Shown in pieces: positions 12,798 to 39,515 of a stretch of 64,000 bases of DNA. The notes under the pieces are model-generated. The model saw nothing but the letters and a program-made list of their open reading frames with translations. It was not told the DNA's origin and did not search any database. Source of the DNA: Methylobacillus caricis. GTDB lineage: Bacteria; Pseudomonadota; Gammaproteobacteria; Burkholderiales; Methylophilaceae. The stretch is from the NCBI RefSeq assembly GCF_020532705.1, contig NZ_JAJAVD010000001.1, forward strand, positions 1,674,001 to 1,738,000. Reading direction: 5' to 3'. The translations under genes were made by a program, and so were the position numbers. Position 1 is the first letter of the stretch; each line of letters begins with the position of its first letter.

Positions 12798-13319
12798 ATG
12801 ATGTTAAATCCCACATGGCACGGTATAGATTTGCGCTGGGCATATATGGACCTGTTACCGACTATCTATCGGCAAACCTCCTATAGGCGCTCCGCTTACG
12901 ATATCCTGCATGATGCCTTGATACGTTTTGCAATCTCGACCAACCCGGATCGATTGCAGCAACCCCATGCATACTTGCACACCATAGTGCGCAACTTGCT
13001 GATCGATAATCACAAAGAGCAAGCGCGCTTTATCCCGCTGGTAACGGAAGACATTGAATCCGAGCTGGCCTATGAGCTTGACCAGCCGCGCGTGCCTTCT
13101 GCTGAACATTTAGTAGACATTCAGCAACGTCTGGATATACTGCAAAAAATCATCGATCATCTGCCGCCACGCTGCAAGGAAACTTTCTGGCTGTACCGCA
13201 TAGAAGGAATGGCACAACAGGATATCGCTGACAAGCTCGGCATTTCACTCAACATGGTCCAAAGACATATCATGCGTGCAATGCTGGATCTACTTGAAGC
13301 CAAGGACCTCATCAGCTAA
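12798..13319 (+). CDS. FecI-type ECF sigma factor
   Basis: 173 residues with region 2 (about 15-80, HDALIRF...HTIVRNLLID) and region 4 helix-turn-helix (about 115-165, GMAQQDIADKLGISLNMVQRH). This is the two-domain layout of ECF sigma factors in the iron-starvation (FecI/PvdS/HasI) group. It would direct RNA polymerase to the receptor operon when the receptor signals that its ligand is bound. A FecR-like gene follows 8 bases later. The receptor with a signalling domain lies 2.8 kb downstream, past an inverted gene. A GGTGG ribosome site precedes ATG-ATG; either ATG could be used. Confidence 0.9.
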   Translation: MMLNPTWHGIDLRWAYMDLLPTIYRQTSYRRSAYDILHDALIRFAISTNPDRLQQPHAYLHTIVRNLLIDNHKEQARFIPLVTEDIESELAYELDQPRVPSAEHLVDIQQRLDILQKIIDHLPPRCKETFWLYRIEGMAQQDIADKLGISLNMVQRHIMRAMLDLLEAKDLIS

Positions 13320-13327
13320 ATCTTGAA

Positions 13328-14365
13328 ATGAGCAGTAACCCGACCCTCAGAGCCGCACGCGAAGCCGCCATCAAATGGTTTGTGCAAATGCAGGATGCCG
13401 ACATCGAGCATCCCAAGCGTAGCCGCTTTGAGGAATGGCTGCTCTCCCACCCCTCCCACCAGCAGGCTTATCGTGAAGTGTGTTCCTTGTGGGAAGACCT
13501 GGACTCCCCTGAACAATTGTTCTCGCTGGCAAGCGCCATGCAGCAGAAAGAATTCATTGAAAAGGCCGACCGGCGCAAAAAAATACACAATGTAGTCACC
13601 CGCACATTGAGTGTCATGTTCTTTGCCGCGACAGGCATCATCGCTTATTACAGCTACGATGCCTGGCAAACCCAACCCACCATGCACATGGTAGCCAAGG
13701 CTGAAATTGGCCAGATTCGCTCCCAGGTACTTGAGGATGGCAGCAAGATTGTCGTCAATGCCAACAGCGATATCGAGATCACCTATTACCGCAAGCAGCG
13801 CCTGGTGAAACTGAACAGCGGGGAAGTCAGCTTTGATGTAGCCAAAAACCCCGACCGTCCCTTTGTAGTGGAAAGCGGCCCAGCCAGAATCACCGTTCTG
13901 GGCACCCGCTTCGCAGTCAACCGCTTTCAGAAAAAAGTACGCGTCAGCGTAGACCACGGCACTGTGCGCGTTGAACCGCAAAGCATAGACCGGCAAGACC
14001 CAACCTCGCCCAACCGCAATGCAGAGAACGTATTGACCCTGCGTGATAATGAAGTCGCAGAAATTAGCTTAGACGGCAAGGCAAAACGCATACAACGCCC
14101 TGCAGCTGATGCCTTCAGCTTTGAGAGTGGCATCATCACTTTTGACCAGGCAGGCCTTGAAGAAATTGCCGAAACCCTATCGCGTTACCGCAAACCATCC
14201 ATCAGCGCCCAAACCGCTCAAGGCCAGGATGCCAGCATTACCGCAGTGATCCAGGCCAGGAATATCGAAAGCTTCATCATGGAACTACCCAGCATCACTC
14301 CGGTAAAGGTTGAACATCACGCCACTGAAACCACACTGAGCGTCAGGCAAAACAAAAAGAAATAA
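13328..14365 (+). CDS. FecR-type anti-sigma / sigma regulator
   Basis: 345 residues. The N-terminal cytoplasmic domain (about 1-80) carries the FecR/DUF4880 pattern WFVQMQDADIEHPKRSRFEE. One transmembrane segment (about 92-112) follows, then a periplasmic FecR domain (about 120-215, with VLGTRFAVNRF) and a C-terminal STN-like/DUF4974 domain that contacts the receptor signalling domain. It binds the preceding sigma factor in the cytoplasm and relays the receptor signal across the inner membrane. It converges on yjjJ with an 8-base gap and no clear terminator between them. Confidence 0.9.
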   Translation: MSSNPTLRAAREAAIKWFVQMQDADIEHPKRSRFEEWLLSHPSHQQAYREVCSLWEDLDSPEQLFSLASAMQQKEFIEKADRRKKIHNVVTRTLSVMFFAATGIIAYYSYDAWQTQPTMHMVAKAEIGQIRSQVLEDGSKIVVNANSDIEITYYRKQRLVKLNSGEVSFDVAKNPDRPFVVESGPARITVLGTRFAVNRFQKKVRVSVDHGTVRVEPQSIDRQDPTSPNRNAENVLTLRDNEVAEISLDGKAKRIQRPAADAFSFESGIITFDQAGLEEIAETLSRYRKPSISAQTAQGQDASITAVIQARNIESFIMELPSITPVKVEHHATETTLSVRQNKKK

Positions 14366-14373
14366 ATTTAAAC

Positions 14374-15783: not shown

Positions 15784-16102
15784 TTATCATTAATTAATAA
15801 GTTATGATAAGAATATACTACAAATTATCCATATAAAACAATTAAATAAAAAAATTAAACAAGTTATTTTGATAAAAATATTGATCCAATCAAAACTGGT
15901 TAAATATTGACCCCAACTGCCCCGCTCCACCCAATTGACGCCTCCCAACCCTAACCCCCTCAACTCGAGCAATACTCTTCTACACAGCAGAACGATCGCC
16001 CATGTAAAAATATTTAAAAAATTTTCAAAATCGACATCAGGGTTTTTCTTCCTCAAAAGTTATATCGGTATAAGAAAGATATTTCTCAGAGGGGGAAAAC
16101 CG
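15784..16102. other. Intergenic region upstream of the STN-TonB receptor
   Basis: 319 AT-rich bases between the divergent yjjJ and receptor genes. The promoter recognised by the FecI-like sigma factor should lie here, but I cannot point to a definite -35/-10 pair. The receptor frame stays open through part of it (from 15935), but those residues do not look like protein ahead of a signal peptide. Confidence 0.5.
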
Positions 16103-19100
16103 TTGGACCTATTTAACCTGCTATATCGACTAGTGGTTCTTTCAGCAGCAATGCTGCTGGTCACCATGCTAACCGTCGCTTCTTTTGCTCTTCAAGCAGC
16201 TGAACTCAACACAAAACTGCCAGCAACAGAGCAACAAAACGGTTCACTGGCCCCGGTCAATGTCGATATGCCAAGCCAACCGCTGGACGTCTCCTTAAAG
16301 CAATTAGCCCGCACCACAGGCATGAGCGTCGCTTTTGACAGCAACCTCGCCAGCGGAAAAACCGCCCCGGCCATCAAGGGCCGCATGAAAGCGGATGAAG
16401 CGCTCAAGATGCTGCTGGCAGGCACCGGTCTGGAATCCACAATTGATAAAGACAACGCTGTCATCAAGCCTGTTGCTCAAAAACCCGATGTGGATATGAA
16501 ACTAGAGTCTATTGAGGTACGCAGCAAACGCTTCTACGAAATCGGCCCCTTGCCTGGATTAGGCCTTACCAAGGAACAAATCCCGGGCAATGTGCAAACT
16601 ATCACTGCCAAAGAAATCAAGGAAGCAAACTCATTAAGTTTGACTGATTTACTTAATCGCAAATTGCAGTCAGTCAATATTAACGACTACCAAGGTAATC
16701 CTTTCCAGATGGATGTGACTTATAGAGGATTTACTGCCGGCCCTCAGATTGGAACACCGCAAGGCCTATCGGTTTTCTTTGATGGCATTCGTGTTAATGA
16801 ACCGTTTGGTGATGTCGTGAATTGGGACATGATTCCCATGAATGCGCTAGCTGGAGTTGATGTGTTTCCAGGATCCAATCCTATCTTCGGTCTTAATACT
16901 TTAGGTGGAGCATTTACTGTCAAAACCAAAGACGGTTTTAATCATACAGGAATAGATGCCAATGTATTGACAGGGTCATTTAATAGAAAACAATTACAAG
17001 CAACTGCTGGTTGGAATAACGGAACAATTGCTTTATTTGGGGCTGGCAATTTCTTCCTTGAAGATGGCTGGAGAGAAAACTCGCCAAGCAGAGTAAATCA
17101 GGCTTTTGGTAAAGCCAGCTACAGAGGGGAAAAACTAGACCTAAATCTGAGCACATTACTTGTCCACAACAATCTTGTTGGCAATGGCCTCTATCCTACT
17201 GATATGTATAAGCAGGATAGTAATGGTGTATTTACATCCCCTGATACTACCAAGAATGATTTAGTACAATTCCAGCTATCAAGCAGTTATTTCGTCAGTG
17301 AAAACTTTACAGTGACAGCGCAGGTGTATCGCCGAGATAGTAAACGTCATCAAATTGGTGCTGATGTATTTACAGGATTAGCAAATCAGGAAGAAGGCGT
17401 TTTTGCACGCGATAAAACATTAGAGGCAATGCCTTACACATGTCTACTTGACAGCACTAACACAGTTGGACTTCCAGATTTCTATGTTTTGACAATAGAA
17501 AATCCAACAGATCCATTTAATGATTTATTTATGGATTCATTTTTCAATAGCGGAATTACTGATCCAGACAGTACTCAACTTCCAAGTTTTTTGAATCTTG
17601 AAAAAAACAAAGAAGATATACCAGCTGATGTTTTATTAGTTATGCAACAGCAATTTAAGCTGATGTCTAATCTAAATTCTGACTATTATAAACAAATAAG
17701 CGGGGCCACAGCCCCTACTATAGGAGAAGAAACTAGTTACTCTTTAGGTGAATCAAGCTACAAAATAGATCCGAGTCTTTTTTCTTCACTGGGAGTTCCT
17801 AATAGTCAAATCAATACCTTCGCTGGTCTAGACAGTTTTTACTACACTAACGAAAACGGCGTAGTAAAAAAACACTTCATCATGCCCATCTCCCCAAGAA
17901 ATAATGATGAATGCAAAACAACCCAGGCATTAGATGCAGTTCAGGATAGCACTCAACGCCCATATACTTATATTGATCCACAGACTGGCGCAATTGCAAC
18001 TGTCGATGGTGCTTACACTGGCGGTAGAGGAATTGTTGAAGGTACACCTACAGCCATCATCACTGACAATAAAATAAATCAGTTGGTAGAAGGAGCTTCT
18101 ATACAATTCAACTGGAATTATGAACATCACAAATTCATGATAGGGGCATCTATTGACGATGCAAGCGCAAAATACACCAACTCACAGCGTCTGGGCTTGC
18201 TGGATACAGATCGTAATGCTTACCTAGCACCAGACGAGATTCACCCGCAATTCTCAGGTGCTGATATTTCATTAGGTAACAATAATTTCAAAGGTACCAA
18301 TACAACCAAGAGTATTTACTTCAGCGAAACTTGGTCACCAGTTAAAAGTTGGAATTTCAGCTTGGCTGCACGCTACAATGAAACTCAAACAAAAAATAAA
18401 ATTGCCACGCGTTATGGCGCAAACAACTTTGAAATCGGTGAATTACTTTCACTACCAGATACATTGGCATTATGTCCAAATAAAGATTGTAGCAATGTAC
18501 CAACTGGCTATAAATTACCTGATTTATCAAATGTGCTTGATGAAGCTGAAACTGAGAAATTTAGCTACTACTCATTTAATCCATCCTTAGGTGCAACATG
18601 GCAAGCTACAGATAATCTAAATATTTTTGCCAATTTTGCCCAGGGAACCCGAACTCCTAGTGTCATTGAACTTGGATGTGCTCTAGATAGAACTCCAGGA
18701 GGAACTGGCACAGGCATTGATGAAAACGGCAATCAATACACCTACATTATTCCTAAAAGTGTTGCTGAGAAACGTGAATGCTATCTTCCAACAACATTAT
18801 CTGGAGATCCCTACTTACCTCAGATAAAAGCTACAACTTTTGACATAGGAGCAAGAGGTCGATTGGGAGAGAATTTTGAATGGAATATTGGTGCATATCA
18901 AACCAACTTAAAAGATGACATATATTTTGTTTCTGTCCAGGATGGAAGAGGATTTTTTGACAGCATTGGAAATACTCGTCGCCGCGGTATAGAAACGGGT
19001 ATATCAGGCAAACTAGGGAAAACAAATTTCAGTTTAAATTACAGTCTTACAGACGCTACATTTCAAGATGAATTTGATATGTTTAGCGCCGACAATAGCA

Positions 19101-19660
19101 GCGCAAGATTTATTAATGGAATGGGGAGTGGAATAATTAGAGTTAAGCCTGGCAGTCGTATGCCTGGGGTTCCCTTGCACAACCTTAATGCAAGCGTCCG
19201 TTACGAAATCACAGACAAATGGCAAATTGGCTTGAGTGCAGTATTGCATTCAGAAAGCTACTTGCGTGGCAATGAAAATAACGAGCATGAAGCAGGCGTG
19301 GCACGTACATTCCAGTCTATTCGCTATGTAAATGGCGTTGCAGAGCCATATACGCGTACCTTACCACCAACTACTAATCCAGGCAAAGTCCCGGGCTATG
19401 CCGTATTCAACCTTCAAAGCAGTTATAAGTTTTCAAGCGAGTGGACAGCAACGCTACTTATTACCAATCTTTTCGACACTGAGTATTTTAGTGCTGGCCG
19501 TCTAGGTCGCAATCCGTTCTCACCATCTATCTTGGGAGCAATAGGGCCTAGTGGCTACAACCATAATTCGGATGATTGGCGTAGTACCAACTTCATCGCT
19601 CCAGGGGCACCAAGAGGCATATGGTTCAGCCTAAATTACCAATTCGATCCACGAAAATAA
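16103..19660 (+). CDS. TonB-dependent transducer receptor (FecA/HasR-like) with STN signalling domain
   Basis: 1185 residues from TTG 16103, chosen because GAGGGGG lies 8 bases upstream and the codon begins a signal peptide (cleavage near LQA-AE, about residue 33). The frame is open from 15935. Domains are STN (about 54-124), which talks to FecR; plug (about 145-300); and a long beta-barrel to a C-terminal aromatic-containing strand (NYQFDPRK). It would import a ligand across the outer membrane and switch on its own operon through the FecR/FecI pair. The barrel is large and loop-rich, as in receptors for protein-bound ligands such as HasR. From about 16,620 the DNA is clearly more AT-rich (roughly 33-42% GC by eye) than the signal/STN part, suggesting recombination within the gene. 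Confidence 0.9.
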   Translation: MDLFNLLYRLVVLSAAMLLVTMLTVASFALQAAELNTKLPATEQQNGSLAPVNVDMPSQPLDVSLKQLARTTGMSVAFDSNLASGKTAPAIKGRMKADEALKMLLAGTGLESTIDKDNAVIKPVAQKPDVDMKLESIEVRSKRFYEIGPLPGLGLTKEQIPGNVQTITAKEIKEANSLSLTDLLNRKLQSVNINDYQGNPFQMDVTYRGFTAGPQIGTPQGLSVFFDGIRVNEPFGDVVNWDMIPMNALAGVDVFPGSNPIFGLNTLGGAFTVKTKDGFNHTGIDANVLTGSFNRKQLQATAGWNNGTIALFGAGNFFLEDGWRENSPSRVNQAFGKASYRGEKLDLNLSTLLVHNNLVGNGLYPTDMYKQDSNGVFTSPDTTKNDLVQFQLSSSYFVSENFTVTAQVYRRDSKRHQIGADVFTGLANQEEGVFARDKTLEAMPYTCLLDSTNTVGLPDFYVLTIENPTDPFNDLFMDSFFNSGITDPDSTQLPSFLNLEKNKEDIPADVLLVMQQQFKLMSNLNSDYYKQISGATAPTIGEETSYSLGESSYKIDPSLFSSLGVPNSQINTFAGLDSFYYTNENGVVKKHFIMPISPRNNDECKTTQALDAVQDSTQRPYTYIDPQTGAIATVDGAYTGGRGIVEGTPTAIITDNKINQLVEGASIQFNWNYEHHKFMIGASIDDASAKYTNSQRLGLLDTDRNAYLAPDEIHPQFSGADISLGNNNFKGTNTTKSIYFSETWSPVKSWNFSLAARYNETQTKNKIATRYGANNFEIGELLSLPDTLALCPNKDCSNVPTGYKLPDLSNVLDEAETEKFSYYSFNPSLGATWQATDNLNIFANFAQGTRTPSVIELGCALDRTPGGTGTGIDENGNQYTYIIPKSVAEKRECYLPTTLSGDPYLPQIKATTFDIGARGRLGENFEWNIGAYQTNLKDDIYFVSVQDGRGFFDSIGNTRRRGIETGISGKLGKTNFSLNYSLTDATFQDEFDMFSADNSSARFINGMGSGIIRVKPGSRMPGVPLHNLNASVRYEITDKWQIGLSAVLHSESYLRGNENNEHEAGVARTFQSIRYVNGVAEPYTRTLPPTTNPGKVPGYAVFNLQSSYKFSSEWTATLLITNLFDTEYFSAGRLGRNPFSPSILGAIGPSGYNHNSDDWRSTNFIAPGAPRGIWFSLNYQFDPRK

Positions 19661-19775
19661 ACGCAAGTAAAAGGAATATCAATTGAAAAAAAGCATTTGT
19701 GAACCACCTACCAGCATTCAACCGCAACCTACTTAGAGCTTACAAGGGACTAATTGATTGTGGTGAATTGGTGTT

Positions 19776-19797
19776 GCAGGCAGCCACAAATGCCTGC
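19776..19797 (+). terminator. Hairpin upstream of exported protein gene
   Basis: GCAGGCA (19776-19782) and TGCCTGC (19791-19797) form a perfect 7-bp stem with an 8-base loop, 25 bases before the next ATG and 116 after the receptor stop. It has only a short T-rich tail, so it may be a leaky terminator, an attenuator or an mRNA-stabilising stem. Confidence 0.45.
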
Positions 19798-19822
19798 TTA
19801 TTCTAAACGATTGGAGAAAAGC

Positions 19823-20797
19823 ATGAAACAGATCACATTAAGACTAGCTGTATTAAGTGCCTTAGGTTTGATTTCAGCACAGGCGACGGCTACAGGTTTA
19901 GAGCCGATTCCAGCAACAGGCTTTAGCGGTACTGCCTATAGATTATGTAACACCACAGGCAATTTCGGCTCTAGCATTACCACAGCCCCCACAACATTAT
20001 CTAATAATGATTGTGCAGTATTCCCGGCTAATGACTCAGCCTCTCCTGTTACTGGTTTTACATTAGCTGCAAATGCATCTAGGCCAGTAGTCATGAATAA
20101 TACTTACACTAACTTCACAAATGTGACTGTAGGAACAGTGACAGATAGAGTATGGCGTAATGCGGCAGCGACAGAGTGCATTTTTGGCACAAAATTCGTT
20201 CCTGCAAATATCGACTATCGCCCTACTGTAGCAGGCGATCCTGATACTGTTGGCAATCAGTACTTTGAAGTTAATGATATTGCACGTGGCGGTTTTAGTA
20301 GCTCAGGTACTGTGCAGGCAGGCTATTTTGTCTCAGGAGGATCCTCATCAATTTATCGCATTGGTAGAACTTACACAGCTGTTCAGCATAGAGCTCTCCA
20401 ATATGACACAGCTACAAATAAAGCAATTCCTGGCACTAATTATGTAGCACTACCGCCGGCACCAGGATCAGCAGCTGCAATCAATGGTGAAGATTTTGCG
20501 ATTACAGCAACAACTCCCGCAACGACTGTAGCTGCTAATCAAAATGCAGACGTTAATAGCGAATGGGTAGACTTTACGTTTGATGCGGTATGGGCTGATG
20601 ACGATGGATCCACCAATCCTGCATCACCAATGACCTATATTCAAGCACCTTGCAGTGCTGGCACCATACCTGTTGCAACCAATGCAATCCGCTTACGCCA
20701 AACTGCACAAGAATATGCTCGATTTATTCAAGTTAGCGTGGATGGCTTTGCCCCTACCAATGCTACACCAAGTCCAGCACCGGTTGTTCCATTCTAA
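19823..20797 (+). CDS. Exported cysteine-containing protein, unknown family (copy 1)
   Basis: 324 residues from ATG 19823, chosen over the upstream in-frame codon at 19754 because GGAG lies 8 bases upstream and the ATG opens a clean signal peptide (cleavage near ATA-TG, residue 24). I do not recognise the family. The mature protein is about 300 residues with cysteines at 42, 64 and 119 and another in PCSAG near the C-terminus. The motifs LCN..G, CAVFP, VWRN, ECIFG, YRIGRT and AIRLRQT are all conserved in a paralogue at 29374-30372; both end in Pro-Phe. It lies between the transducer receptor and the RTX gene. It may be a periplasmic or secreted partner of the RTX protein or receptor, or a type II secretion substrate. 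The DNA is AT-rich like the receptor barrel. Confidence 0.75.
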   Translation: MKQITLRLAVLSALGLISAQATATGLEPIPATGFSGTAYRLCNTTGNFGSSITTAPTTLSNNDCAVFPANDSASPVTGFTLAANASRPVVMNNTYTNFTNVTVGTVTDRVWRNAAATECIFGTKFVPANIDYRPTVAGDPDTVGNQYFEVNDIARGGFSSSGTVQAGYFVSGGSSSIYRIGRTYTAVQHRALQYDTATNKAIPGTNYVALPPAPGSAAAINGEDFAITATTPATTVAANQNADVNSEWVDFTFDAVWADDDGSTNPASPMTYIQAPCSAGTIPVATNAIRLRQTAQEYARFIQVSVDGFAPTNATPSPAPVVPF

Positions 20798-23082: not shown

Positions 23083-23094
23083 TTAGGCAGGCTG

Positions 23095-23113: not shown

Positions 23114-23153
23114 TGTTCAATTTCCTAATTCTACTTCCAGGAATACTGCTTAC

Positions 23154-30372: not shown

Positions 30373-30381
30373 GGAGGCCAT

Positions 30382-30840
30382 ATGTTCCCCTACTACCCAT
30401 CATGTCACCAGAGCCAGCGCATGGGAACAGCCATCGAAAGCCGTGGCTTTACGCTTCTTGAGCTGTTGGTGGTCATGGTCATCATCGGCCTGCTGGCGGG
30501 CTATGTTGGCCCCAAGTATTTCGCCCAGATCGGCAAGTCAGAAACCAAGACGGCCAAGGCACAGATTGATGCATTGAGCAAAGCACTGGACCAATACCGA
30601 TTGGATACCGGCCATTACCCCAGCTCGGAACAGGGTCTTGAAGCGCTCAACAATGCGCCATCGGACGAAACCAGGTGGCATGGACCCTATCTGCAGAAAA
30701 CCCTGCCGATAGACCCATGGGGCAAGCCCTATCTATACCGCTCTCCGGGAGAGCATGGCGAATATGACTTGTGGTCGTTCGGCAAGGACGGCCAGCTTGG
30801 CGGCACTGAAGAATCCGCCGACGTGGTGAGCTGGCAGTAA
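30382..30840 (+). CDS. gspG: Major pseudopilin, GspG family
   Basis: 152 residues. The prepilin peptidase site is G-FTLLELLVV (Gly20/Phe21) with Glu at +5, preceded by a rather long 20-residue leader. The C-terminal GspG domain has the conserved pattern YPSSEQGLEAL ... DPWGKPYLY ... GEYDLWSFGKDG with calcium-site acidic residues. GspG polymerises into the type II secretion pseudopilus. A perfect AAGGAGG lies 5 bases upstream of the ATG. It opens the T2SS-like half of the operon. Confidence 0.92.
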   Translation: MFPYYPSCHQSQRMGTAIESRGFTLLELLVVMVIIGLLAGYVGPKYFAQIGKSETKTAKAQIDALSKALDQYRLDTGHYPSSEQGLEALNNAPSDETRWHGPYLQKTLPIDPWGKPYLYRSPGEHGEYDLWSFGKDGQLGGTEESADVVSWQ

Positions 30841-30869: not shown

Positions 30870-32057
30870 ATGAAATTTGATCTGAAAGTAGCGCGCGGGG
30901 CAGAAGTGGAATCGCTGACGATAGAGGCTGGCGATACCCTGCAGGCACAGATATTGGCCGAAGCGCAGGGTTACAGTGTCCTGGCATTGCGCGCCCAGGG
31001 CAAGATGGCTGCTGGCAGGCGCTTGCGCAAGTCAAGGTTCAACCTCATGCTGTTCAGCCAGGAATTGCTGTCGTTGCTGGACTCAGGCCTGAGCCTGGTT
31101 GAGGCAATAGAGGCACTGGCAGAAAAAGAGGCCAATGCAGAATCCCGCAGCCTGCTGAACCAGATCATGGCATTGCTGTATGAAGGGTTGCCGCTTTCCA
31201 GTGCGCTGGAAAAATTTCCCGCGATATTCTCCCCGCTCTATGTCGCCCTGATCCGCAGCAGCGAACGCACCGGCGACATGGTGCAGGCCCTGGCACGCCA
31301 CGTCACTTACCAGGGCCAGCTGGATGCGGTTCGCAAGAAGATAGTCACTGCTTCCATCTACCCAGTGCTGCTGATCCTGGTAGGTGGTTTGGTCATGCTG
31401 TTCTTGCTGGGTTACGTGGTTCCCCGCTTCAGCACCATTTATGAAAGTGCAGGCAATGACCTGCCATGGATGTCGCAAATGCTGTTGGCATGGGGCCGGC
31501 TGCTGCATGACCATGGCTCGGCTGCGCTCACTGTTTCAGTGGCCGTAGCAGTGCTGCTGGGCTACTTGTTGAGCCGGCAGGCTGTACGTGCCGCCATCAT
31601 GCGGCAAATTTGGAAAATCCCGGCACTGGGTGAAACCATGCGCATTTATCAACTGGCAAGGTTCTACCGCACGCTGGGCATGCTGTTGCGTGGAGGCATT
31701 CCCCTGGTCACCGGGATGCAGATGGTGGCCTCCCTGCTGCAACCCGGCCTGCGCCACAGCCTGCAGCTGGCCGAGCATGATATCCGCGAAGGCAAGCCGC
31801 TCTCCAGCGCAATGGAGGAACATGGCATGACCACCTCGATTGCCATCCGTATGTTGCGTGTGGGCGAGCGTACAGGCCGCATGGGCGAGATGATGGAACG
31901 CATAGGAACATTCTATGATGAGGAAATCGCCCGCGCCGTGGACTGGTTCACACGTTTGCTGGAGCCGCTGCTGATGGTGGTCATCGGCCTGATCATCGGC
32001 ATTGTGGTTGTGCTGATGTATATGCCGATATTCGACCTGGCCGGGAGCATACAATGA
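30870..32057 (+). CDS. gspF: Type II secretion / type IV pilus inner membrane platform protein, GspF family
   Basis: 395 residues with two GspF repeats, each a cytoplasmic helical bundle plus membrane segments (around 165-190, 215-235 and 365-385). Landmarks are FSQELLSLLDSGLSLVEAIEAL in repeat 1 and FYRTLGMLLRGGIPLVTGMQ in repeat 2. It anchors the assembly ATPase and drives pseudopilin incorporation. Its stop overlaps the gspE start by 4 bases. Confidence 0.93.
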   Translation: MKFDLKVARGAEVESLTIEAGDTLQAQILAEAQGYSVLALRAQGKMAAGRRLRKSRFNLMLFSQELLSLLDSGLSLVEAIEALAEKEANAESRSLLNQIMALLYEGLPLSSALEKFPAIFSPLYVALIRSSERTGDMVQALARHVTYQGQLDAVRKKIVTASIYPVLLILVGGLVMLFLLGYVVPRFSTIYESAGNDLPWMSQMLLAWGRLLHDHGSAALTVSVAVAVLLGYLLSRQAVRAAIMRQIWKIPALGETMRIYQLARFYRTLGMLLRGGIPLVTGMQMVASLLQPGLRHSLQLAEHDIREGKPLSSAMEEHGMTTSIAIRMLRVGERTGRMGEMMERIGTFYDEEIARAVDWFTRLLEPLLMVVIGLIIGIVVVLMYMPIFDLAGSIQ

Positions 32058-33760
32058 ACCAGCCGCTGGACCATCTGCCCATCTTGCAGGCTTCTTCCGG
32101 GCTTAGCCTGCAGCAGGTCCAGCATGCTCGCCAGCTGGCAGCGCAAAGCCAGCAGCACCTGCTGGATGTGCTGGAAGAAATCTCCGCGATGGATTCGGAA
32201 AGCTTCATGCTGGCCTTGGGCAACCTGATGCGCTACCCGGTTTACGGCATATTGGAACTTTACGAGATGCAGCCTGATTTCAGCCTGTTGAGCTTTCCCG
32301 AGGCTGGCAAACAGGAGTGCATCGCCTTGCGGGCAACGGATGGCAAGCTGCACATGGTCTATGCCAACCCGTTTGACCCGTACCTGCATAGCCGCATGAG
32401 CCAGATTGCCAGGGAACCTGTTGGCTGGGGACTGGCACATCGCAAGGATATTGCCGCATTCCTGTCGCGTTATGAAGAAAGCATGCGCGCCATGGACGGC
32501 CTGCTGCCGGAACATGGGGATATCGAGAACGGCAGCAGCAGTATCGAGGACATTTCCCTGCGTTCCATTTCTGAAGACACCAGCCCGGTAGTCAAGCTGG
32601 TGCGCTCCACGCTGTATGACGCCCTCAAGGCAGGCGCCAGCGACATCCACATGGAGACCGACCCGCATGGCCTCACCATCAAGTACCGCATAGACGGCGT
32701 GCTCAGCATGGTGGGCAGCATCAACGGCATCATGCAGGCGGAACAGGCCATTTCACGCATCAAGGTCATGTCGGAACTGGACATCGCCGAACGCCGTGTT
32801 CCGCAGGATGGCCGTTTCAAGGTAATGGCGCTTGGCCGCGAAGTGGATATGCGCGTTTCCATTATGCCCAGCGTATTTGGCGAGGATGCCGTACTGCGTA
32901 TCCTGGACCGCAAGGCCCTTTCTGACCAGGCACAGGGGCTGAGCCTGGATGTGCTGGGTTTTGAACCCGCCATCATGGCCCGCTTCCGCCTGCTGGCGGA
33001 AGAGCCTTACGGCATGCTCCTGGTCACCGGCCCCACTGGCTCGGGCAAAACCACCACGCTGTACGGCATTATTTCCGAGATCAATAACGGCCAGGACAAG
33101 ATTGTCACGATTGAGGACCCGGTGGAATACCAGCTGCCCGGGGTACTGCAAATTCCGGTCAATGAGAAAAAAGGGCTGACGTTTGCGCGTGGCCTGCGCT
33201 CCATCTTGCGTCACGACCCGGACAAAATCATGGTCGGTGAAATCCGCGACCCGGAAACAGCGCAAATTGCTGTGCAATCCGCGCTCACCGGTCACCTGGT
33301 GTTGACCACGGTCCATGCCAACAATGTATTTGACGTCATCGGCCGCTTCACCAACATGAATGTGGACCCCTACAGTTTCGTTTCTGCCATCAACGGCATC
33401 ATGGCCCAGCGCCTGGTCCGCATATTGTGTCCGCATTGCTCAACCGATGACCAGCCTGATGCCGAGCTGTTGCAGAAATCAGGCATCAGCCCCGAAGCTG
33501 CACGGGAATACAGGTTCCGCCACGGACAGGGCTGTGGCCAATGCCATGGCACCGGTTACAAGGGCCGCAAAGCCATTGCCGAATTGCTTGTTTTCAATGA
33601 CCTCATCCGCGAACTCATCGTCACCCGTGAGCCGGTACGCAAAGTGAAGGAAGCCGCTCGTGCCAACGGCACCCGCACCATGCGTGAAGCGGCTCTCGAC
33701 ATGGTGAAACGCGGTGAAACCACTTTGCAGGAGATCAATCGTGTTACCTCCCTCGTTTAA
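32054..33760 (+). CDS. gspE: Type II secretion ATPase, GspE/PulE family
   Basis: 568 residues. It has an N-terminal T2SSE_N-type domain (about 1-150), a catalytic domain with Walker A GPTGSGKT (326-333), an Asp box (VTIEDPVEYQ), Walker B with GEIRD, and a His box (TTVHAN). The zinc tetracysteine loop (Cys459, 462, 494, 497) is typical of GspE rather than retraction ATPases. It powers pseudopilus assembly at the inner membrane. Confidence 0.94.
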   Translation: MNQPLDHLPILQASSGLSLQQVQHARQLAAQSQQHLLDVLEEISAMDSESFMLALGNLMRYPVYGILELYEMQPDFSLLSFPEAGKQECIALRATDGKLHMVYANPFDPYLHSRMSQIAREPVGWGLAHRKDIAAFLSRYEESMRAMDGLLPEHGDIENGSSSIEDISLRSISEDTSPVVKLVRSTLYDALKAGASDIHMETDPHGLTIKYRIDGVLSMVGSINGIMQAEQAISRIKVMSELDIAERRVPQDGRFKVMALGREVDMRVSIMPSVFGEDAVLRILDRKALSDQAQGLSLDVLGFEPAIMARFRLLAEEPYGMLLVTGPTGSGKTTTLYGIISEINNGQDKIVTIEDPVEYQLPGVLQIPVNEKKGLTFARGLRSILRHDPDKIMVGEIRDPETAQIAVQSALTGHLVLTTVHANNVFDVIGRFTNMNVDPYSFVSAINGIMAQRLVRILCPHCSTDDQPDAELLQKSGISPEAAREYRFRHGQGCGQCHGTGYKGRKAIAELLVFNDLIRELIVTREPVRKVKEAARANGTRTMREAALDMVKRGETTLQEINRVTSLV

Positions 33761-34610
33761 CTGGTCCCCGCCCTGGCGGGATGAATTACGTGTGCTGATA
33801 CAACCACACAAACTCACCCTGCTTAGAGTCAAGGGAGGAATGAAGCGCTTGCCTGTGGCAATCGAGGAATTACCCCTGGCGGCAACAGAAAACAGCCTGG
33901 CAAAAGCTGCCAGTCACGAATTCTGGCAACCTGCGGTCACCACATTGCATAAAGCGCTGAAGGATCCCAAGTGGCGCGGCTGCAAGCCCAAGGTCGTGAT
34001 ATCCAATCATTTTGCCAATTATTCCATCATTCCCTGGAATGCTGGCCTGACAAGCCATAAAGAGCAACAAGCGTTCGTTCGCCATTGCTTCATGCAGGCT
34101 TACGGTGATTTTTCACGCAGCTGGGATGTGCGCGCCAGCCCGGCTCCTTACGGCAATCCCACCCTAGCCAGCGCCATAGAGGACAATCTGTTGCAGGCTT
34201 TACGCCACGAGTTCAGGCAAGCAGGCATGCCACTCAGAAATATTCACCCCCACTTGATGATGGCGATCAATGTCATCCGCCAGCAATTCGGCCGCAAACC
34301 GCTGCCGCCTTCAATGTGCATGGTCATGCTTGAACACGGGCGATTGCTGATCGCACTGGTAGAAAGCGGAAAATGGCTGAGCCTGCAAAACTACGCGGCG
34401 GAATCAGACATCGAGATCCAGCTGGAAGCCCTGATAGAGCGGGAGGCCATCATTGCAGGGATTGATGCCGGCACCTGGCCTGTGTTTATTTACTGGCCGG
34501 AACCGAATATCAATATCGCCCTGCAAGGTCGCAAGGTACGCAATATTTTCTCGCTCGCCCAAGCTACGCCGCTGAATAGTTCAAAAATCAATATGGAGGC
34601 CTGGAGTTAA
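33741..34610 (+). CDS. Probable GspL/PilM-like (MshI-type) cytoplasmic assembly protein
   Basis: 289 residues from GTG 33741, supported by AGGAG 8 bases upstream; an earlier ATG at 33714 lies deeper in gspE and lacks a ribosome site. It overlaps gspE by 20 bases. There is no membrane segment. The order (segment near VVISNHFANYSIIPWN, then KEQQAFVRHCF) resembles the actin-like cytoplasmic part of GspL/PilM proteins, and the place before PilN/PilO/PilP-like genes fits. Sequence similarity is weak by eye, so the call rests mostly on position. Confidence 0.6.
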   Translation: MLPPSFNWSPPWRDELRVLIQPHKLTLLRVKGGMKRLPVAIEELPLAATENSLAKAASHEFWQPAVTTLHKALKDPKWRGCKPKVVISNHFANYSIIPWNAGLTSHKEQQAFVRHCFMQAYGDFSRSWDVRASPAPYGNPTLASAIEDNLLQALRHEFRQAGMPLRNIHPHLMMAINVIRQQFGRKPLPPSMCMVMLEHGRLLIALVESGKWLSLQNYAAESDIEIQLEALIEREAIIAGIDAGTWPVFIYWPEPNINIALQGRKVRNIFSLAQATPLNSSKINMEAWS

Positions 34611-34611
34611 G

Positions 34612-35130
34612 ATGCTGCCACCCATATCCCTCAATCATGCATTACCAGGCGAACACAAAAATGCCTGGGGGTTGGCCTTGCTCGTCATCGGTGGCATTAG
34701 CGCACTGGCATTGCTGGCCAGCCTACAGAAAATCAATCAGAGAAACAGCATCTTGGAACTGGATATCACCCAGATGCAGCAACCCAGCCATGGCCTGAAA
34801 CTCAGCGGCAAGGAAAGCAAGGCCAAGCTGGAAGAAATTGCAGCCGTGAAGAGTGCGATAGAGGAACTTTCACTGCCGTGGCAGCCCTTGTTCCAGGCTC
34901 TGGAAAACCTTGCATCTCCAGAAATAAAGCTGGTGGCAGTTGAACCCAACCCCAGGCAGCGCAAGCTGCGCATCACGGCAGAGACCAGCGATGTCGCCAA
35001 CATGTTCGGCTATGTACGCAGCCTGGGCAACCAATCCATATTCAACGACATTTTGCTGCTGACGCACGAATTTCATAACGATAGTGCGATACCTGTACGT
35101 TTTGTAGTGGAGGCAATATGGATTCAGTAA
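34612..35130 (+). CDS. PilN-like (MshI C-terminal-type) assembly protein
   Basis: 172 residues: a cytoplasmic N-terminus of about 18, one membrane helix (about 19-38), then a short coiled coil and a ferredoxin-like periplasmic domain. It starts one base after the preceding stop and overlaps the next gene by 13. Size, topology and position between PilM-like and PilO-like genes fit PilN. Sequence alone is not decisive. Confidence 0.6.
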   Translation: MLPPISLNHALPGEHKNAWGLALLVIGGISALALLASLQKINQRNSILELDITQMQQPSHGLKLSGKESKAKLEEIAAVKSAIEELSLPWQPLFQALENLASPEIKLVAVEPNPRQRKLRITAETSDVANMFGYVRSLGNQSIFNDILLLTHEFHNDSAIPVRFVVEAIWIQ

Positions 35131-35681
35131 CCCGGCAACGGCTCATGCTATGGGTCAAATATCAGGCGGGAAAACTTGGCTGGCAAGGAGTCACGGGATT
35201 GGGATTGCTTGGCTTGAGCCTGATTGCTTCCATTGCGCTGCTGTGGCCCAGGGCGCGTGCACTGGAGCAGTTGGAAACAGATGTGGCCATGATGCATCAG
35301 GCCATGCCTCGCCATCAGGGCCAGTGGATAGACCGATCCCCCCAGGCCTCCATCAATACCTTTTACCAGTTTCTACCCCGTGAAAACGAGGCTACCACCC
35401 TGCTTGCCCAGGTCATTGAGGCAGCTGAGCAGCATGGCTTGATCGCAGAGAAAGTGGATTACACCCTCAGCCGCAACAATGCGGCCAATTTCTCAAAATA
35501 CCAGATGACTTTGCCGGTACGCGGCCATTATGTAGATATCCGCAGCTTTATCAGCCACGTACTGAATACCATCCCGTCTTCGGCATTGAATGACATCAGC
35601 CTGAAACGGGAAGATATCCAAAGCGAGGAAGTCGAAGCCAAGCTGCGCTTTACGCTATACCTGCAAAAAGGTGATGCATGA
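35118..35681 (+). CDS. PilO/GspM-like assembly protein
   Basis: 187 residues with one membrane helix (about 23-45), a coiled coil and a ferredoxin-like periplasmic domain. It starts inside the end of the previous gene, with GTGGAGG upstream, and overlaps the next gene by 4 bases. Position and topology match PilO/MshJ/GspM, which with PilN forms the alignment subcomplex of the inner membrane. Confidence 0.62.
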   Translation: MDSVTRQRLMLWVKYQAGKLGWQGVTGLGLLGLSLIASIALLWPRARALEQLETDVAMMHQAMPRHQGQWIDRSPQASINTFYQFLPRENEATTLLAQVIEAAEQHGLIAEKVDYTLSRNNAANFSKYQMTLPVRGHYVDIRSFISHVLNTIPSSALNDISLKREDIQSEEVEAKLRFTLYLQKGDA

Positions 35682-36205
35682 GCGTGCCCCTAGCTCCCAG
35701 GCAACTCATCATATGGGCGGCGCTAGCGCTCAGTGTGCTGGCTACTGTCTGGACTTCGATGGCAGAAGACGACTCTGAAGTGGCAACACAAAAATCTAAC
35801 AGGCCTGCGCCAGCCCTGCCCGGTTCTCAACGGACCAATCCAGTCCAGCCGGACATGGATACGCTGCTGCTGGACGTGCAGAAATTAAAACGCGAACGCA
35901 TGACGGACCTGTCCCAGAACCTCTTCAGCGTTGATTCCCGCAGAGCACAACAAGCTGCGGAAAGTCAGCAAGCAGTGGCACAGCAGGTCATGGAAATTCC
36001 ACCGTTGCCTTTTACCTATGCCGGTAAGCTCGAAGATAACGGCCAATTCACCGTATTCCTGTCCATGGGAGAAAAAAATTACAGCGTCAAGATTGGGGAT
36101 GTGGTGGGTGAATGGAAAGTACAGAGCATCAACCCGCCAAACATGGTCCTGAGTTATCTGCCATTGCGCGCAGGAGTGCCCTTAATGATTGGAGACAGCA
36201 AGTGA
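35678..36205 (+). CDS. PilP/GspC/MshK-like protein
   Basis: 175 residues with an N-terminal membrane anchor (about 8-27), a linker rich in Pro and Gln, and a small C-terminal beta domain (about 108-172; PPLPFTYAGKLEDNG, then KNYSVKIGDVVGEWKV). This is the homology-region fold of GspC/PilP, which contacts the secretin N-domains. The stop overlaps the GTG start of the secretin gene. Confidence 0.7.
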   Translation: MSVPLAPRQLIIWAALALSVLATVWTSMAEDDSEVATQKSNRPAPALPGSQRTNPVQPDMDTLLLDVQKLKRERMTDLSQNLFSVDSRRAQQAAESQQAVAQQVMEIPPLPFTYAGKLEDNGQFTVFLSMGEKNYSVKIGDVVGEWKVQSINPPNMVLSYLPLRAGVPLMIGDSK

Positions 36206-38166
36206 AAGCAGCCCCTTACAAGCACATCAGCCTGACATTGCTGGTGATCGCACTCTCTGCCTGCTCCTCCCAGGAAATGAAGCAGCAGCAAAGTGACCTG
36301 GAATACCAGCAAGTCAAAACACTGATCAACTCAGGACAGGTTGAAGAAGGCATGCAACGCCTGCAAACCCTGATGCGCAGCTTCCCCCAGAACCCGGAAT
36401 ACCGTGCCTACTTCAAACAGCAACAGGATATGCAGCTGGCCATCCTGCTCAAAGAGGCTGACCAGCTCAAATACCAGAAACGCTGGGGAGAGGCAGATAT
36501 TGCCTACCGCCGAGTCCTGGACATGGATGAGCAGAACCAACGGGCGCAAAACGGCATCCAGCAGATGCGCGTTGCCAGCACGCATGACGCCATGATGCAG
36601 CAAGCGCAAACCTTGTTCAGCAACAATGATAGTGAAGCAGCACAGCAATTGGCACGGGCCGTACTGGCGGAAGATGCCAGCCACACGGGCGCACGGGCAT
36701 TGTTTGAACAGATAGAGCAAAAACGCATGGACAAACTCACCAACCCGCCACACATCCGCTCGGCCTTCAAGCGTCCGATCTCCCTGGAGTTCAAGGATGT
36801 GACGATCAAGTCCATTTTCGAGTTCATCTCCCAGGCAGCCGGCATCAACTTTACCTATGACCAGGAGCTGCGCGGCGACCAGCGGACCAGCGTTTTTCTG
36901 CGCAATACACCAATAGAAGAAGCGATTGAAGTGATATTGACCAGCAACCAGCTGGCAAAGAAAGTGCTGAACGACAATACGCTGCTGATTTATCCCTTGA
37001 GCCGGAGCCAGGAATACCAGGAAACCTTTGTCCGCAGCTTCTACCTGAGCAATACCGACGCCAAAAAGCTCATGAGCATGATCAAGACCGTGGTCAAGAC
37101 CAAGGACATCTACATTGATGAAAAGCTCAATACCCTGGTGATGCGCGATACTGCAGAAGCGATACGCACTGCGGAAAAACTCATCATCTCGCAAGACATG
37201 GCGGAACCGGAAGTGGTGCTGCAGGTGGAAGTGCTGGAAATCAACCGGCGCAGTCTGGAGAACATAGGCATACGCTATCCCACTTCAGTCTCGCTGGGAG
37301 TACAGGGACGTGACACAGTAAACGGCACCACGACATTGTCACCGGGCAAGCTGACCGTGAATGAACTGAAGAATTTCAATTCCAACCTGGGCGTATTCAG
37401 CATCAGCGACCCGGTGCTGGCCTTAAACCTGCTGCAGCAGGACACTGACACCAACCTGCTTGCCAACCCGCATATCCGGGTCAAGAACCGGGAGAAGGCC
37501 AAAATCCACGTGGGCGACCGCATTCCGGTCCTCACCAGCGTGGCCAACTCCACGGGGTTTGTCTCGCAAACCGTCAATTACATTGAAGTTGGCATCAAGC
37601 TGGATGTGGAACCCACCATACTGCTGAAGGACGAAGTGTCGATCAAGGTTGGCCTGGAAGTCAGCAACCAGACCGACAGGCTCACTTCCAGTACCGGTAC
37701 CGTTACCTATACCATCGGCACCCGCAATGCCAATACCATACTCCGCCTCAAGAATGGCGAAACACAAATATTGGCAGGCTTACTGAGGGATGATGAACAG
37801 AGAATATCCAACGGTGTTCCCGGCCTGTCCAAATTGCCATTGATAGGCAGGCTGTTCAACGACAGGAACAACGACCATAGCAAGAAGGAAATCGCGCTTC
37901 TCATCACTCCGCATATCATCAACAACCTGACCCCGGCGGATGCCATCTATACCGCTTTCCCGGCAGGGGTTGATCGCAGCAGCGGTGCCAATCGCAATGG
38001 ACGTCCGAATGTCGAAATCAACAACAATGTGGCAGTTCAGTCTCCCCCGGTAAAAACGCCACAGGAGATACAGGCGGAACGCGCAGAATCCGACCGTTCA
38101 TTTGCAGGCTCAGTCATGCGGCCCATGGATGAGATATCCAGCCCGGATAACGGAACTCCACGATAA
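36202..38166 (+). CDS. Lipoprotein secretin (GspD/MshL-type) with N-terminal TPR-like repeats
   Basis: 654 residues from GTG 36202, which has GGAG upstream and opens a lipoprotein signal (LSAC, acylated Cys21); the longer frame from 36112 overlaps the preceding gene. About 170 helical residues that look like TPR repeats follow, then an N0/STN-like domain (PISLEFKDVTIKSIFEFIS), an N1-type domain and the secretin core (NTDTNLLANPHIRV ... GDRIPVLT ... EVGIKLDVEPTI). It forms the outer-membrane pore. Attachment of lipid and TPR repeats to the secretin itself may make it self-piloting and replace a separate pilotin. Confidence 0.92.
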   Translation: MKAAPYKHISLTLLVIALSACSSQEMKQQQSDLEYQQVKTLINSGQVEEGMQRLQTLMRSFPQNPEYRAYFKQQQDMQLAILLKEADQLKYQKRWGEADIAYRRVLDMDEQNQRAQNGIQQMRVASTHDAMMQQAQTLFSNNDSEAAQQLARAVLAEDASHTGARALFEQIEQKRMDKLTNPPHIRSAFKRPISLEFKDVTIKSIFEFISQAAGINFTYDQELRGDQRTSVFLRNTPIEEAIEVILTSNQLAKKVLNDNTLLIYPLSRSQEYQETFVRSFYLSNTDAKKLMSMIKTVVKTKDIYIDEKLNTLVMRDTAEAIRTAEKLIISQDMAEPEVVLQVEVLEINRRSLENIGIRYPTSVSLGVQGRDTVNGTTTLSPGKLTVNELKNFNSNLGVFSISDPVLALNLLQQDTDTNLLANPHIRVKNREKAKIHVGDRIPVLTSVANSTGFVSQTVNYIEVGIKLDVEPTILLKDEVSIKVGLEVSNQTDRLTSSTGTVTYTIGTRNANTILRLKNGETQILAGLLRDDEQRISNGVPGLSKLPLIGRLFNDRNNDHSKKEIALLITPHIINNLTPADAIYTAFPAGVDRSSGANRNGRPNVEINNNVAVQSPPVKTPQEIQAERAESDRSFAGSVMRPMDEISSPDNGTPR

Positions 38167-38648
38167 TGTACGCTATCAGGCATATGCGCGGGTTTACGCT
38201 GATAGAACTGCTGGTGACGCTGGTGCTGCTTGCGCTCATACTCAGCTCAGCCGCACCGGTCATGCAGATCAATGCCAAACGTGCCAAGGAGCAGGAACTC
38301 AAGCGGGACTTATGGCAGCTACGTGACGCGATTGATGCCTACAAAAAAGCGGTGGATGACGGCCTGATCAAAAAATCGCCTGGACAGTCAGGCTACCCTC
38401 CCAACCTGAGAATATTGGTGCAAGGGGTAGAAAATCCACGTGATCCCAAAAAAGGAAAAATCTATTTCCTGCGCAGCATCCCACGCGACCCGTTTGCCAA
38501 TGACCCGGAACTATCCGCAGAAGCCAGTTGGGGAAAGCGCAGCTATGCCAGCTCTTTTGATGAACCTGCTGAAGGTGATGACGTTTATGACATCTACTCA
38601 CTTTCCAATGACAAAGGCCTTGACCAGCGGCCTTACCGGGAATGGTAG
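38166..38648 (+). CDS. Pseudopilin (type II secretion)
   Basis: 160 residues. The processing site is RG-FTLIELLVT (Gly9/Phe10) with Glu+5 present, followed by a long hydrophobic helix. The C-terminal part has PPNLRILV and RSIPRDPF, resembling GspG-type minor pseudopilins. The start shares one base with the secretin stop. It overlaps the next pseudopilin by 7 bases. Confidence 0.88.
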   Translation: MYAIRHMRGFTLIELLVTLVLLALILSSAAPVMQINAKRAKEQELKRDLWQLRDAIDAYKKAVDDGLIKKSPGQSGYPPNLRILVQGVENPRDPKKGKIYFLRSIPRDPFANDPELSAEASWGKRSYASSFDEPAEGDDVYDIYSLSNDKGLDQRPYREW

Positions 38649-39031
38649 GCATGAACCGGCAACCGCATGGATTTACCCTGATCGAGGTCTTGGTGGTCAT
38701 GGCCATTATCGCTACCCTGCTCAGCCTCGTCACACCCCGCTATTTCCAGAGTATAGACCGCGCCCGGGAAACCTCGCTACGGCATGACCTGATCGTCATG
38801 CGCGACGCGATTGATAAATTCTACAGTGACACCGGCGCTTATCCTGACACCTTGTATGACCTGGTGGAACGCAAATATCTGCGCGCCGTCCCGGAAGATC
38901 CCATCACTGAAAGTACGGATAGCTGGATTCTGGTTCCGCCAGAGGACCCGCAGGCCAAGGGGCTGGTATATGACATACGCAGCGGGTCAGAAAGCGTGGC
39001 CTCGGATGGCAGTTATTATGCGGAATGGTAA
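38642..39031 (+). CDS. Pseudopilin (GspG/GspH-like, short)
   Basis: 129 residues from ATG 38642; ATG 38651 is an equally plausible start. The processing site is HG-FTLIEVLVV (Glu+5 present). The C-terminal half has FYSDTGAYPDTLYDLVERKYL and VPEDPITES, a compact GspG-like domain, and ends in SYYAEW. It overlaps the following gene by 14 bases. Confidence 0.87.
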   Translation: MVGMNRQPHGFTLIEVLVVMAIIATLLSLVTPRYFQSIDRARETSLRHDLIVMRDAIDKFYSDTGAYPDTLYDLVERKYLRAVPEDPITESTDSWILVPPEDPQAKGLVYDIRSGSESVASDGSYYAEW

Positions 39032-39515
39032 CCGCCCACAAAAAGGGTTCAGCCTGATAGGAGCCTTACTCATCATCATGCTGGTTGGCTTTAGCCTTGC
39101 CGAGGCAGGCAACACATGGAGCAATATCCGCAAACGCGAACGGGAGCAGGAGTTGCTGAAAGTAGGCGACACCATACGCAATGCCATAGGCAATTACTAC
39201 AACCAGTCGCCCGGCATGGTCAAACAATTCCCCCCCACATTGAAAGCCCTGCTGAAGGATGACAGGTTTCCCGTGCCCCAACGTTATTTGCGCCAGCTTT
39301 ATATGGATCCCACTACCGGCAGGCCTGGATGGGGACTGCTGTATGCTCCCAGCGGAGGGATCATGGGCGTTTACAGCCTGTCTTCCGACCAGCCATTCAA
39401 GACAAAGAACTTCCCCGAGCGCTATAAGGATTTTGAAAAGAAAAAAGCCTACATAGAATGGATATTTGCTTACCTGCCAGAGACGGATAATAGCTTGACG
39501 GAGTCACTGAACTAG
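39018..39515 (+). CDS. Minor pseudopilin lacking Glu+5 (possible tip subunit)
   Basis: 165 residues from ATG 39018; the frame stays open upstream from 38811 inside the previous gene, but only this start places the leader correctly. The prepilin site is KG-FSLIGALLI (Gly10/Phe11). Position +5 is Gly, not the Glu that pseudopilins normally need for docking; GspK tip subunits share that exception but are about twice as long. The body contains QFPPTLKALLKDDRFPVP and MDPTTGRPGWGLLY. It is the last gene of the T2SS-like series. Confidence 0.82.
   Translation: MRNGNRPQKGFSLIGALLIIMLVGFSLAEAGNTWSNIRKREREQELLKVGDTIRNAIGNYYNQSPGMVKQFPPTLKALLKDDRFPVPQRYLRQLYMDPTTGRPGWGLLYAPSGGIMGVYSLSSDQPFKTKNFPERYKDFEKKKAYIEWIFAYLPETDNSLTESLN

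Follow-up and report, generated by a model that had tools for sequence, protein, structure and literature searches.

A heritable island of receptor, Exp and secretion genes in methylotrophic bacteria

The subject of this report is a run of genes at positions 12798..39515 of a 64,000-nucleotide stretch of the Methylobacillus caricis genome (contig NZ_JAJAVD010000001.1, positions 1,674,001 to 1,738,000), hereafter called the window. It joins an extracytoplasmic function (ECF) sigma factor and a FecR-like protein, a TonB-dependent receptor with an STN domain, two members of an exported protein family named Exp here (expA and expB), an RTX protein with a type I secretion system (T1SS) and a machine similar to type II secretion systems (T2SS). 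The island is real and heritable, and its layout is more than chance, for it is met again in other genera and in another class of Proteobacteria. The reading preferred here, to which a probability of about 0.5 is given, is that of one inherited surface-uptake module in which Exp is the cargo of the T2SS-like machine and works with the receptor. It is carried by four observations, namely the linkage of the genes, their co-occurrence, the co-divergence of receptor and expA, and the conserved fold of an RNA element found before exp. The locus suggests that methanol-eating bacteria have a new means of exporting proteins in order to bring something into the cell.

Full-length Exp proteins were seen only in Methylophilaceae and in the family of Methylophaga. 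Of the 150 Methylophilaceae genomes 39 are carriers, and the family to which Methylophaga aminisulfidivorans belongs has 8 carriers among 57 genomes; two wider draws, in which at most five candidates per genome were scored, gave 2 of 398 genomes for the phylum (both of the window's own genus) and 7 of 399 for the order (all Methylophilaceae, with weak partial matches in 7 more). A scan of named genomes with short peptide patterns, which misses divergent members, returned 16 loci from Methylobacillus, Methylophilus, Methylotenera, another Methylophilaceae, Methylophaga and one gammaproteobacterial metagenome-assembled genome (G904) belonging to the same family as Methylophaga. The preliminary description of the locus had tied the exported-protein family to the secretion machinery, and for the T2SS-like machine this tie holds throughout the 150 Methylophilaceae genomes: the 39 with exp all have the T2SS-like cluster (39/39), and the 111 others have neither. 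The exp-linked orthologue of the pseudopilin-like gene psp1 (at least 60% identity, genome-wide) is likewise confined to exp-positive genomes and present in all 39 of them, with a cut chosen after the list had been seen and a next match that is 55% identical and just 3 bits lower. That match comes from a paralogous type of T2SS-like cluster, present in the window genome too, and some psp1 homologue is found in 26 of the 111 exp-negative genomes.

Gene order was compared in 40 neighbourhoods from the 39 genomes, the window included and G016 counted with two. The order receptor-exp-RTX-ABC-ABC-HlyD-TolC-(exp)-gspG...psp3 is kept in 22 of the 40, among them the window, though the sigma/fecR pair adjoins the receptor in not all of these 22. 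The T1SS and T2SS-like halves thus belong together, as had been proposed, and they do so in a different order in three loci of Methylophaga (Gammaproteobacteria), which read fecIR-receptor(s)-exp-RTX-gspG...psp3-ABC-HlyD-TolC with the ABC gene starting 30-48 bp after psp3. Receptor and exp are about 4.4 kb apart in G050 and G022, the RTX gene stands without an adjacent T1SS in G002 and G035, and the neighbourhoods of G136 and G141 are cut at contig ends. In loci without RTX both exp and the T2SS-like genes are retained, and almost all of these loci have a receptor (none is shown at G016, and that of G017 points in the other direction). A psp3 homologue is present in 37 of the 40 neighbourhoods, and an ExbB gene lies 205-424 bp past the psp3 match in 8 of them and elsewhere in 7 more.

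The T1SS that lies upstream of gspG and has an ABC pair and the one that lies downstream of psp3 and has a single ABC subunit are not the same system moved about: the single subunit of the Methylophaga type is 41-42% identical to the window ABC, and from this it seems that the association with a T1SS arose more than once. In two of the three Methylophaga loci ExbB, ExbD and TonB genes come after the T1SS; in the third it is followed, near the contig end, by a fecR gene after a sigma-like reading frame. In G904 the genes for ABC, HlyD and TolC are on another contig, beside TonB-ExbD-ExbB. G905 (locus L114) has a 55% identical ABC elsewhere in its genome, and G035 and G017 have a 35-36% identical one on the opposite strand of the same contig, 12-16 kb downstream.

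The Exp family resembles nothing in the databases searched. ExpA and ExpB, which are 43% identical and the only two full-length members in their genome, matched no Pfam or NCBIfam family (E up to 0.001), no relative of Exp was found in the PDB, and a Pfam scan of 24 Exp proteins with E allowed up to 10 listed six families, none of them convincing. An alignment of 37 members shows a conserved Sec-type leader and four invariant or nearly invariant cysteines. In a tree of 71 copies, whose root serves drawing only, the distal, mostly gspG-proximal copies form two clades (7 rows, support 99/100; 11 rows, support 100/100) separate from the receptor-proximal ones, and Methylophaga proteins are nested within those of Methylophilaceae at more than one place, as would be expected if the module had moved between classes.

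Receptor and expA diverge together beyond the level explained by gspE. Their pairwise distances correlate with r 0.63 over 34 loci (the first exp of each being used), and the partial r is still 0.62 after the gspE distance is removed. The value for secretin and expA is -0.16 (37 loci), and that for RTX and expA is weak (0.15, p 0.06) though RTX lies equally close to expA.

The structured element before exp occupies positions 19708..19836 of the window (plus strand; 122.7 bits with the model R1 built for it), from behind the receptor stop to the expA start codon, which the match takes in. As a nucleotide motif it lay hidden where exp reading frames extend in the 5' direction. There were 51 matches to a loose hairpin pattern, and 49 aligned elements have three features in common: a long imperfect outer helix, in which 10 of the 11 modelled pairs show changes on both sides, an inner helix, and a hairpin whose loop (GCCACAAA in the window) is strongly conserved; the ribosome-binding site and then the exp start come 3' of the hairpin at a similar, not fixed, spacing. 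The element has a conserved RNA fold. RNAalifold predicts 18 pairs for the 49 sequences, 12 of them with double changes, and 92.8% of cells pair. The covariation score of 0.334 was reached in 0 of 500 shuffles (mean 0.180, sd 0.010), a control inflated by related rows; 12 double-change pairs, set against 8.5 in shuffles, were reached in 2 of 500; and slid versions of the structure scored at most 0.079, a comparison in which the true structure is favoured as it came from the same alignment. Folded individually, the outer helix is mostly formed in 45 of the 49, the hairpin mostly in 48 and some of the inner helix in 47. The window copy alone folds only moderately better than its shuffles, of which 8 in 200 do as well or better (z -2.0). 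A pseudoknot between loop and strand was considered by eye and dropped. Rfam (4227 models), searched with the window copy only (12300-40000), gave four matches with E of 5 or less, of which none falls at 19708-19836.

By position among the tree copies, the element stands ahead of 48 of 53 receptor-proximal-type exp genes and of 0 of 18 in the two distal clades. Under stricter filters R1 has 53 matches in the 150 Methylophilaceae genomes, all within exactly the 39 exp-positive ones, and 44 of the 53 are directly before an exp start (truncated at G109:314515 and at the contig end in G136:C131). One more lies between receptor pieces (G136), two fit no category (G055), and no second context that would point to a ligand was met elsewhere in the genomes. 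The simplest reading is that the element serves post-transcriptional control of the receptor-proximal exp.

The part given to the RTX protein (20875..23082) by the preliminary description, that of a replacement for the hemophore HasA, is not supported by the comparison. RTX orthologues (at least 67% over residues 235-600) were found in 26 genomes, each of them with exp, so that 13 of the 39 lack one and still keep exp and the T2SS-like genes; homologues at 49-54% are found in G133 and G003, both exp-negative. A PrtD-type ABC (E up to 1e-90) accompanies 25 of the 26, the exception being G141, where the ABC gene is cut by the contig end. It is absent from 11 of the 13 RTX-free genomes (present in G016 and G017) and occurs in 8 of the 111 exp-negative ones. 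Within the 39 the linkage has a Fisher p of 5e-7. RTX and the PrtD-type T1SS are therefore a mutually linked, optional add-on in two thirds of the carriers, and at the locus the RTX repeats come with a dedicated ABC-HlyD-TolC set, as in a T1SS with RTX cargo. Moreover, the receptor is tracked more closely by ExpA than by RTX (partial r 0.62 vs 0.46). The candidacy of RTX as the receptor's hemophore is weakened by the RTX-free loci and by the co-divergence, and the receptor's partner is likely Exp, the constant companion. An alignment of 29 RTX proteins shows a highly conserved core between repeat blocks, PDB matches fall in and around the N-terminal repeats only, and no enzymatic domain was matched in Pfam.

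Distant relatives place the receptor and an Exp-like partner in other company. In G557 and G591, from two other Burkholderiales families, tandem Exp-like pairs lie directly behind a related receptor, and no T1SS or T2SS-like genes were found beside them at the threshold used; profile comparisons of the distant relatives gave 99.6% and 97.9% probability. In the window genome itself (L145 9628-14719, on C1 at about 1.85 Mb) a receptor is followed by two Exp-like proteins that end in PEP-CTERM tails; an exosortase gene, part of an exosortase/exopolysaccharide-like locus, is about 8 kb away. Given the relatives in other Burkholderiales, a limitation of Exp to methylotrophs was rejected. G797, the one genome opened out of five others with weak matches, encodes a protein whose tail looks PEP-CTERM-like by eye, and no window-related receptor was seen within the stretch examined. 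The receptor with its Exp-like pair looks like the older unit, with an export or sorting device that varies by locus, and this is the main ground for supposing that Exp ends up outside the cell.

The module would work as follows. Its core would be the STN receptor, one to three Exp proteins and the T2SS-like machine. Exp would leave the cytoplasm by Sec and be carried over the outer membrane by the T2SS-like machine, and once outside it would act with the receptor as a capture or co-receptor protein for a ligand. RTX, exiting through the T1SS, might have a helper role on the cell surface, such as that of a calcium-dependent scaffold. The ligand-loaded receptor would signal from its STN domain to FecR and on to the ECF sigma factor, and the structured RNA would set the Exp output from the receptor-exp transcript. 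The pairing of machine and cargo, retrieval, ligand binding, signalling and the function of the RNA are what we infer from these arrangements, and a secrete-and-retrieve scheme appears to fit them best. A more elaborate version, with secretion, loading and retrieval, two machines for two cargo classes, exchangeable receptor-Exp pairs, ligand-sensing RNA feedback and a ligand needed by methylotrophs (a lanthanide, another metal or pyrroloquinoline quinone), is rather doubtful as a whole. If the module is true, a T2SS-like machine and a T1SS can both be enlisted by one receptor-linked uptake system; Exp and the defined RNA are directly testable targets in culturable methylotrophs, with a possible bearing on the metal or cofactor supply of their methanol dehydrogenases.

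Several observations weigh against this picture. T2SS cargo carry no readable signal, so the export of Exp by the machine is guilt by association. ExbB was not found in 25 of the 40 neighbourhoods, the window among them. The receptor also co-varies with RTX (0.46), the last exp (0.69) and the secretin (0.29), and because of this part of the receptor-expA signal may reflect a 5' half that was exchanged as one piece; the permutation p of 0.0005 is the least obtainable and ignores phylogeny. The two closest receptor paralogues of the window genome (55-56% identical) have sigma/FecR genes and no exp. As to the RNA, five receptor-proximal exp copies are without the element (G047_e2, G098_e1, G066_e1, G104_e1 and L119_e1), four R1 matches precede RTX (G035, G048, G066 and G086), and the element follows a receptor without exp in G080, G050 and two Methylophaga loci (L126 and L129), such copies having lost the ribosome-binding site and start or having a changed hairpin.

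The last group of facts bears on whether the element is an RNA regulator at all or a DNA recombination site for the exchange of receptor-exp cassettes. Receptor and exp genes, and in four cases RTX genes, have elements between them, remnants of the element persist after exp-less receptors, and receptor and expA are lower in GC than the machine, all of which would suit such a site. It is nevertheless quite improbable, as the element runs into the ribosome-binding site and start of exp and the exp-less copies are altered in the 3' part or the hairpin. The core of integron attC sites contains GTT; this core is missing by eye from the element, which was not retained as an attC candidate. Another rival holds that the receptor itself exports or displays Exp and that the T2SS-like machine has other cargo, for which Oar and PopC of Myxococcus are a reported precedent (quoted in PMC8406197). 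The pairs of G557, G591 and L145, standing without an adjoining T2SS-like cluster, speak for it, and they count against the module; with the presence of Exp equal to that of the T2SS-like cluster across 150 genomes, it is very improbable.

More weight falls to the idea of a surface-structure island, in which a short pilus or pseudopilus would be the product of the machine, Exp and RTX would be adhesins or a coat, and the receptor would be a regulatory or nutrient neighbour with no retrieval involved. The MshEN domain of the ATPase, the PilO-like gene, the absence of over-cut-off matches to the canonical T2SS parts C and H-M, an RTX protein with only repeats and a conserved core, and the PEP-CTERM surface-sorting tails of Exp relatives elsewhere are all in its favour. 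Yet expA co-diverges with the receptor and not with the secretin, ExbB/ExbD and TonB genes adjoin the cluster in several genomes, the GspG-type pseudopilin is over its cut-off and no second, retraction-type ATPase was seen among the locus genes, so that this idea is doubtful. Sus-like polymer scavenging, with a secreted Exp that binds or processes a carbohydrate or other polymer and a receptor that imports the products, would suit the large receptors (the window open reading frame has 1241 aa) and a TPR gene that six loci have between exp and gspG and whose C-terminus looks glycosyltransferase-like by eye. It is unlikely, Exp having matched no enzyme or carbohydrate-binding family in the Pfam and NCBIfam scans and the named hosts being methylotroph genera.

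Among the closest known systems are the Has hemophore loci, in which an ECF sigma/FecR-type pair, an STN receptor, a T1SS and a secreted cargo are found together. The resemblance to secrete-and-retrieve systems seen in the preliminary description is well founded: sigma factor, FecR and STN receptor (Pfam) and the T1SS (TIGR01842, TIGR01843, TIGR01844) are shared. The present locus differs by its added eleven-gene T2SS-like machine and Exp family and by an RTX/T1SS part that is optional, and no HasA-family match was obtained for Exp or RTX in Pfam or NCBIfam. The suggestion of iron or heme as ligand, made in the preliminary description, found no support from Fur control: there is no Fur-like site (up to 3 mismatches, both strands) before the sigma or receptor gene of the window, a missing consensus match being weak evidence. 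The other 39 neighbourhoods, scanned on one strand, hold 6 such sites, 3 of them inside receptor genes. The window's only one, a palindrome with 1 mismatch at 1239-1257, precedes another TonB-dependent receptor (1286-3421).

Type XI secretion (T11SS/Slam) loci with hemophilin-type TbpBBD proteins, as described in PMC8406197, likewise link a secreted protein, its exporter, TonB and a TonB receptor; the exporter here is T2SS-like, no Slam gene was found among the locus proteins scanned, and TbpBBD is not among the six families listed for the 24 Exp proteins. The lanthanide receptors LanA/LutH are TonB receptors of methylotrophs too, and secretion and reclaim of small peptides has been proposed there (PMC12482762); the likeness is one of description. 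PEP-CTERM/exosortase proteins share with this locus the tailed Exp-like relatives behind a receptor, whereas expA, expB and the 24 scanned Exp proteins have no PEP-CTERM match. With T2SS and MSHA-type machines the cluster shares GspG, GspF, GspE and secretin (Pfam over cut-off) and prepilin-like genes, and it differs by PilM/N/O/P-like genes in place of GspC/L/M. Of ten T2SS-like proteins scanned (psp3 was scanned with NCBIfam only) just GspG reaches an NCBIfam equivalog cut-off; none had a Pfam match to GspC, H, I, J, K, L or M, the GspH model appearing below cut-off only, and the MshL-type secretin model TIGR02519 gave 102.8 bits, short of its cut-off of 250.2. Membership in the canonical T2SS or MSHA class was rejected as their defining parts were not found. 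Term searches of open-licence PMC papers, which leave most subscription papers and all preprints outside, brought up no combination of receptor-linked uptake, T2SS-like machine and T1SS and nothing about the present locus.

Every gene named in the preliminary description is present and co-directional on the plus strand. The ECF sigma factor (FecI-like, 12798..13319; Pfam Sigma70_r2/r4 and TIGR02937 over cut-off) is followed by the FecR-like anti-sigma factor (13328..14365; Pfam FecR and DUF4880 over cut-off) and by a HipA-like gene on the minus strand (14374-15783), omitted from that description. In relatives the fecR-receptor gap varies in length, with other genes inside it in some (G055, G014). 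The receptor (15935..19660; Pfam STN, Plug and barrel over cut-off) has an uncertain start codon, which truly may lie later because a signal peptide is seen by eye near codons 65-90 of the frame. expA, of the receptor-proximal type, runs from the ATG at 19823 to 20797. The RTX gene (Pfam HemolysinCabind) is followed by a PrtD-type ABC subunit (23103..24869; TIGR01842 over cut-off), a second ABC subunit 35% identical to it (24866..26569; Pfam ABC_tran and ABC_membrane), the HlyD-family adaptor (26581..27993; TIGR01843 over cut-off), the TolC-family outer membrane protein (27990..29363; TIGR01844 over cut-off) and expB (29374..30372), of the gspG-proximal type and separate clade, with no R1 match before it.

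The eleven-gene cluster, ending at 39515, runs from the GspG-like major pseudopilin (30382..30840; TIGR01710 182.8 bits, cut-off 88.85) through the GspF-like inner membrane protein (30870..32057; Pfam T2SSF, below the GspF equivalog cut-off), the GspE-like ATPase (32054..33760; Pfam T2SSE and MshEN), the PilM-like (33714..34610), PilN-like (34612..35130) and PilP/GspC-like (35678..36205) genes, named from position and size with no Pfam match, the PilO-like gene between the last two (35118..35681; Pfam PilO), and the secretin (36112..38166, start uncertain; Pfam Secretin, Secretin_N and STN over cut-off, TPR_19 below it), whose N-terminus is lipoprotein-like by eye and TPR-like, to the pseudopilin-like psp1 (38166..38648), psp2 (38642..39031), both with Pfam N_methyl, and psp3 (39018..39515). 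The start of psp3 is most likely 39018, judging from a translation that reads GFSLIGALL, with no Glu at position 5; no NCBIfam match was obtained.

From RTX onward the gaps in bp are 20, -4, 11, -4, 10, 9, 29, -4, -47, 1, -13, -4, -94, -1 and -7, the largest of 29 bp agreeing with the spacing of at most about 30 bases described before. The 10 bp between TolC and expB and the 9 bp between expB and gspG leave no room for a terminator, and on the plus strand between 29363 and 30382 a single weak terminator-like site is listed, within expB. A terminator-like hairpin at 23093-23115, directly 3' of the RTX stop and ahead of the T1SS genes, suggests that more RTX than exporter may be produced. GC is 0.417 in the receptor, 0.45 in expA and 0.49 in RTX, against 0.51-0.58 in the T1SS, expB and T2SS-like genes.

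Some minor observations may be added. Four of the six loci with a TPR gene between exp and gspG are without T1SS or RTX. Long TPR proteins beside exp or after psp3 were seen at L052 17295-19466, L046 about 2655-4967 and L167 1863-4607, and at least one of them has a C-terminus that by eye is glycosyltransferase-like, its 25 displayed Pfam families all being TPR or TPR-like. In one G016 neighbourhood (L072/L073, G016:C1) an Exp domain forms the start of a predicted protein of 1145 aa, with no separate exp, and no T2SS-like gene was matched within 40 kb around it. The stretches L126 5691-6354 and L129 5593-6256 hold a copy of the RNA element and a pseudopilin-like remnant between two receptors, which looks like a collapsed second module. 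The paralogous T2SS-like cluster of the window genome (L149/L150, C4 at about 347-357 kb) has neighbours whose products look exported by eye.

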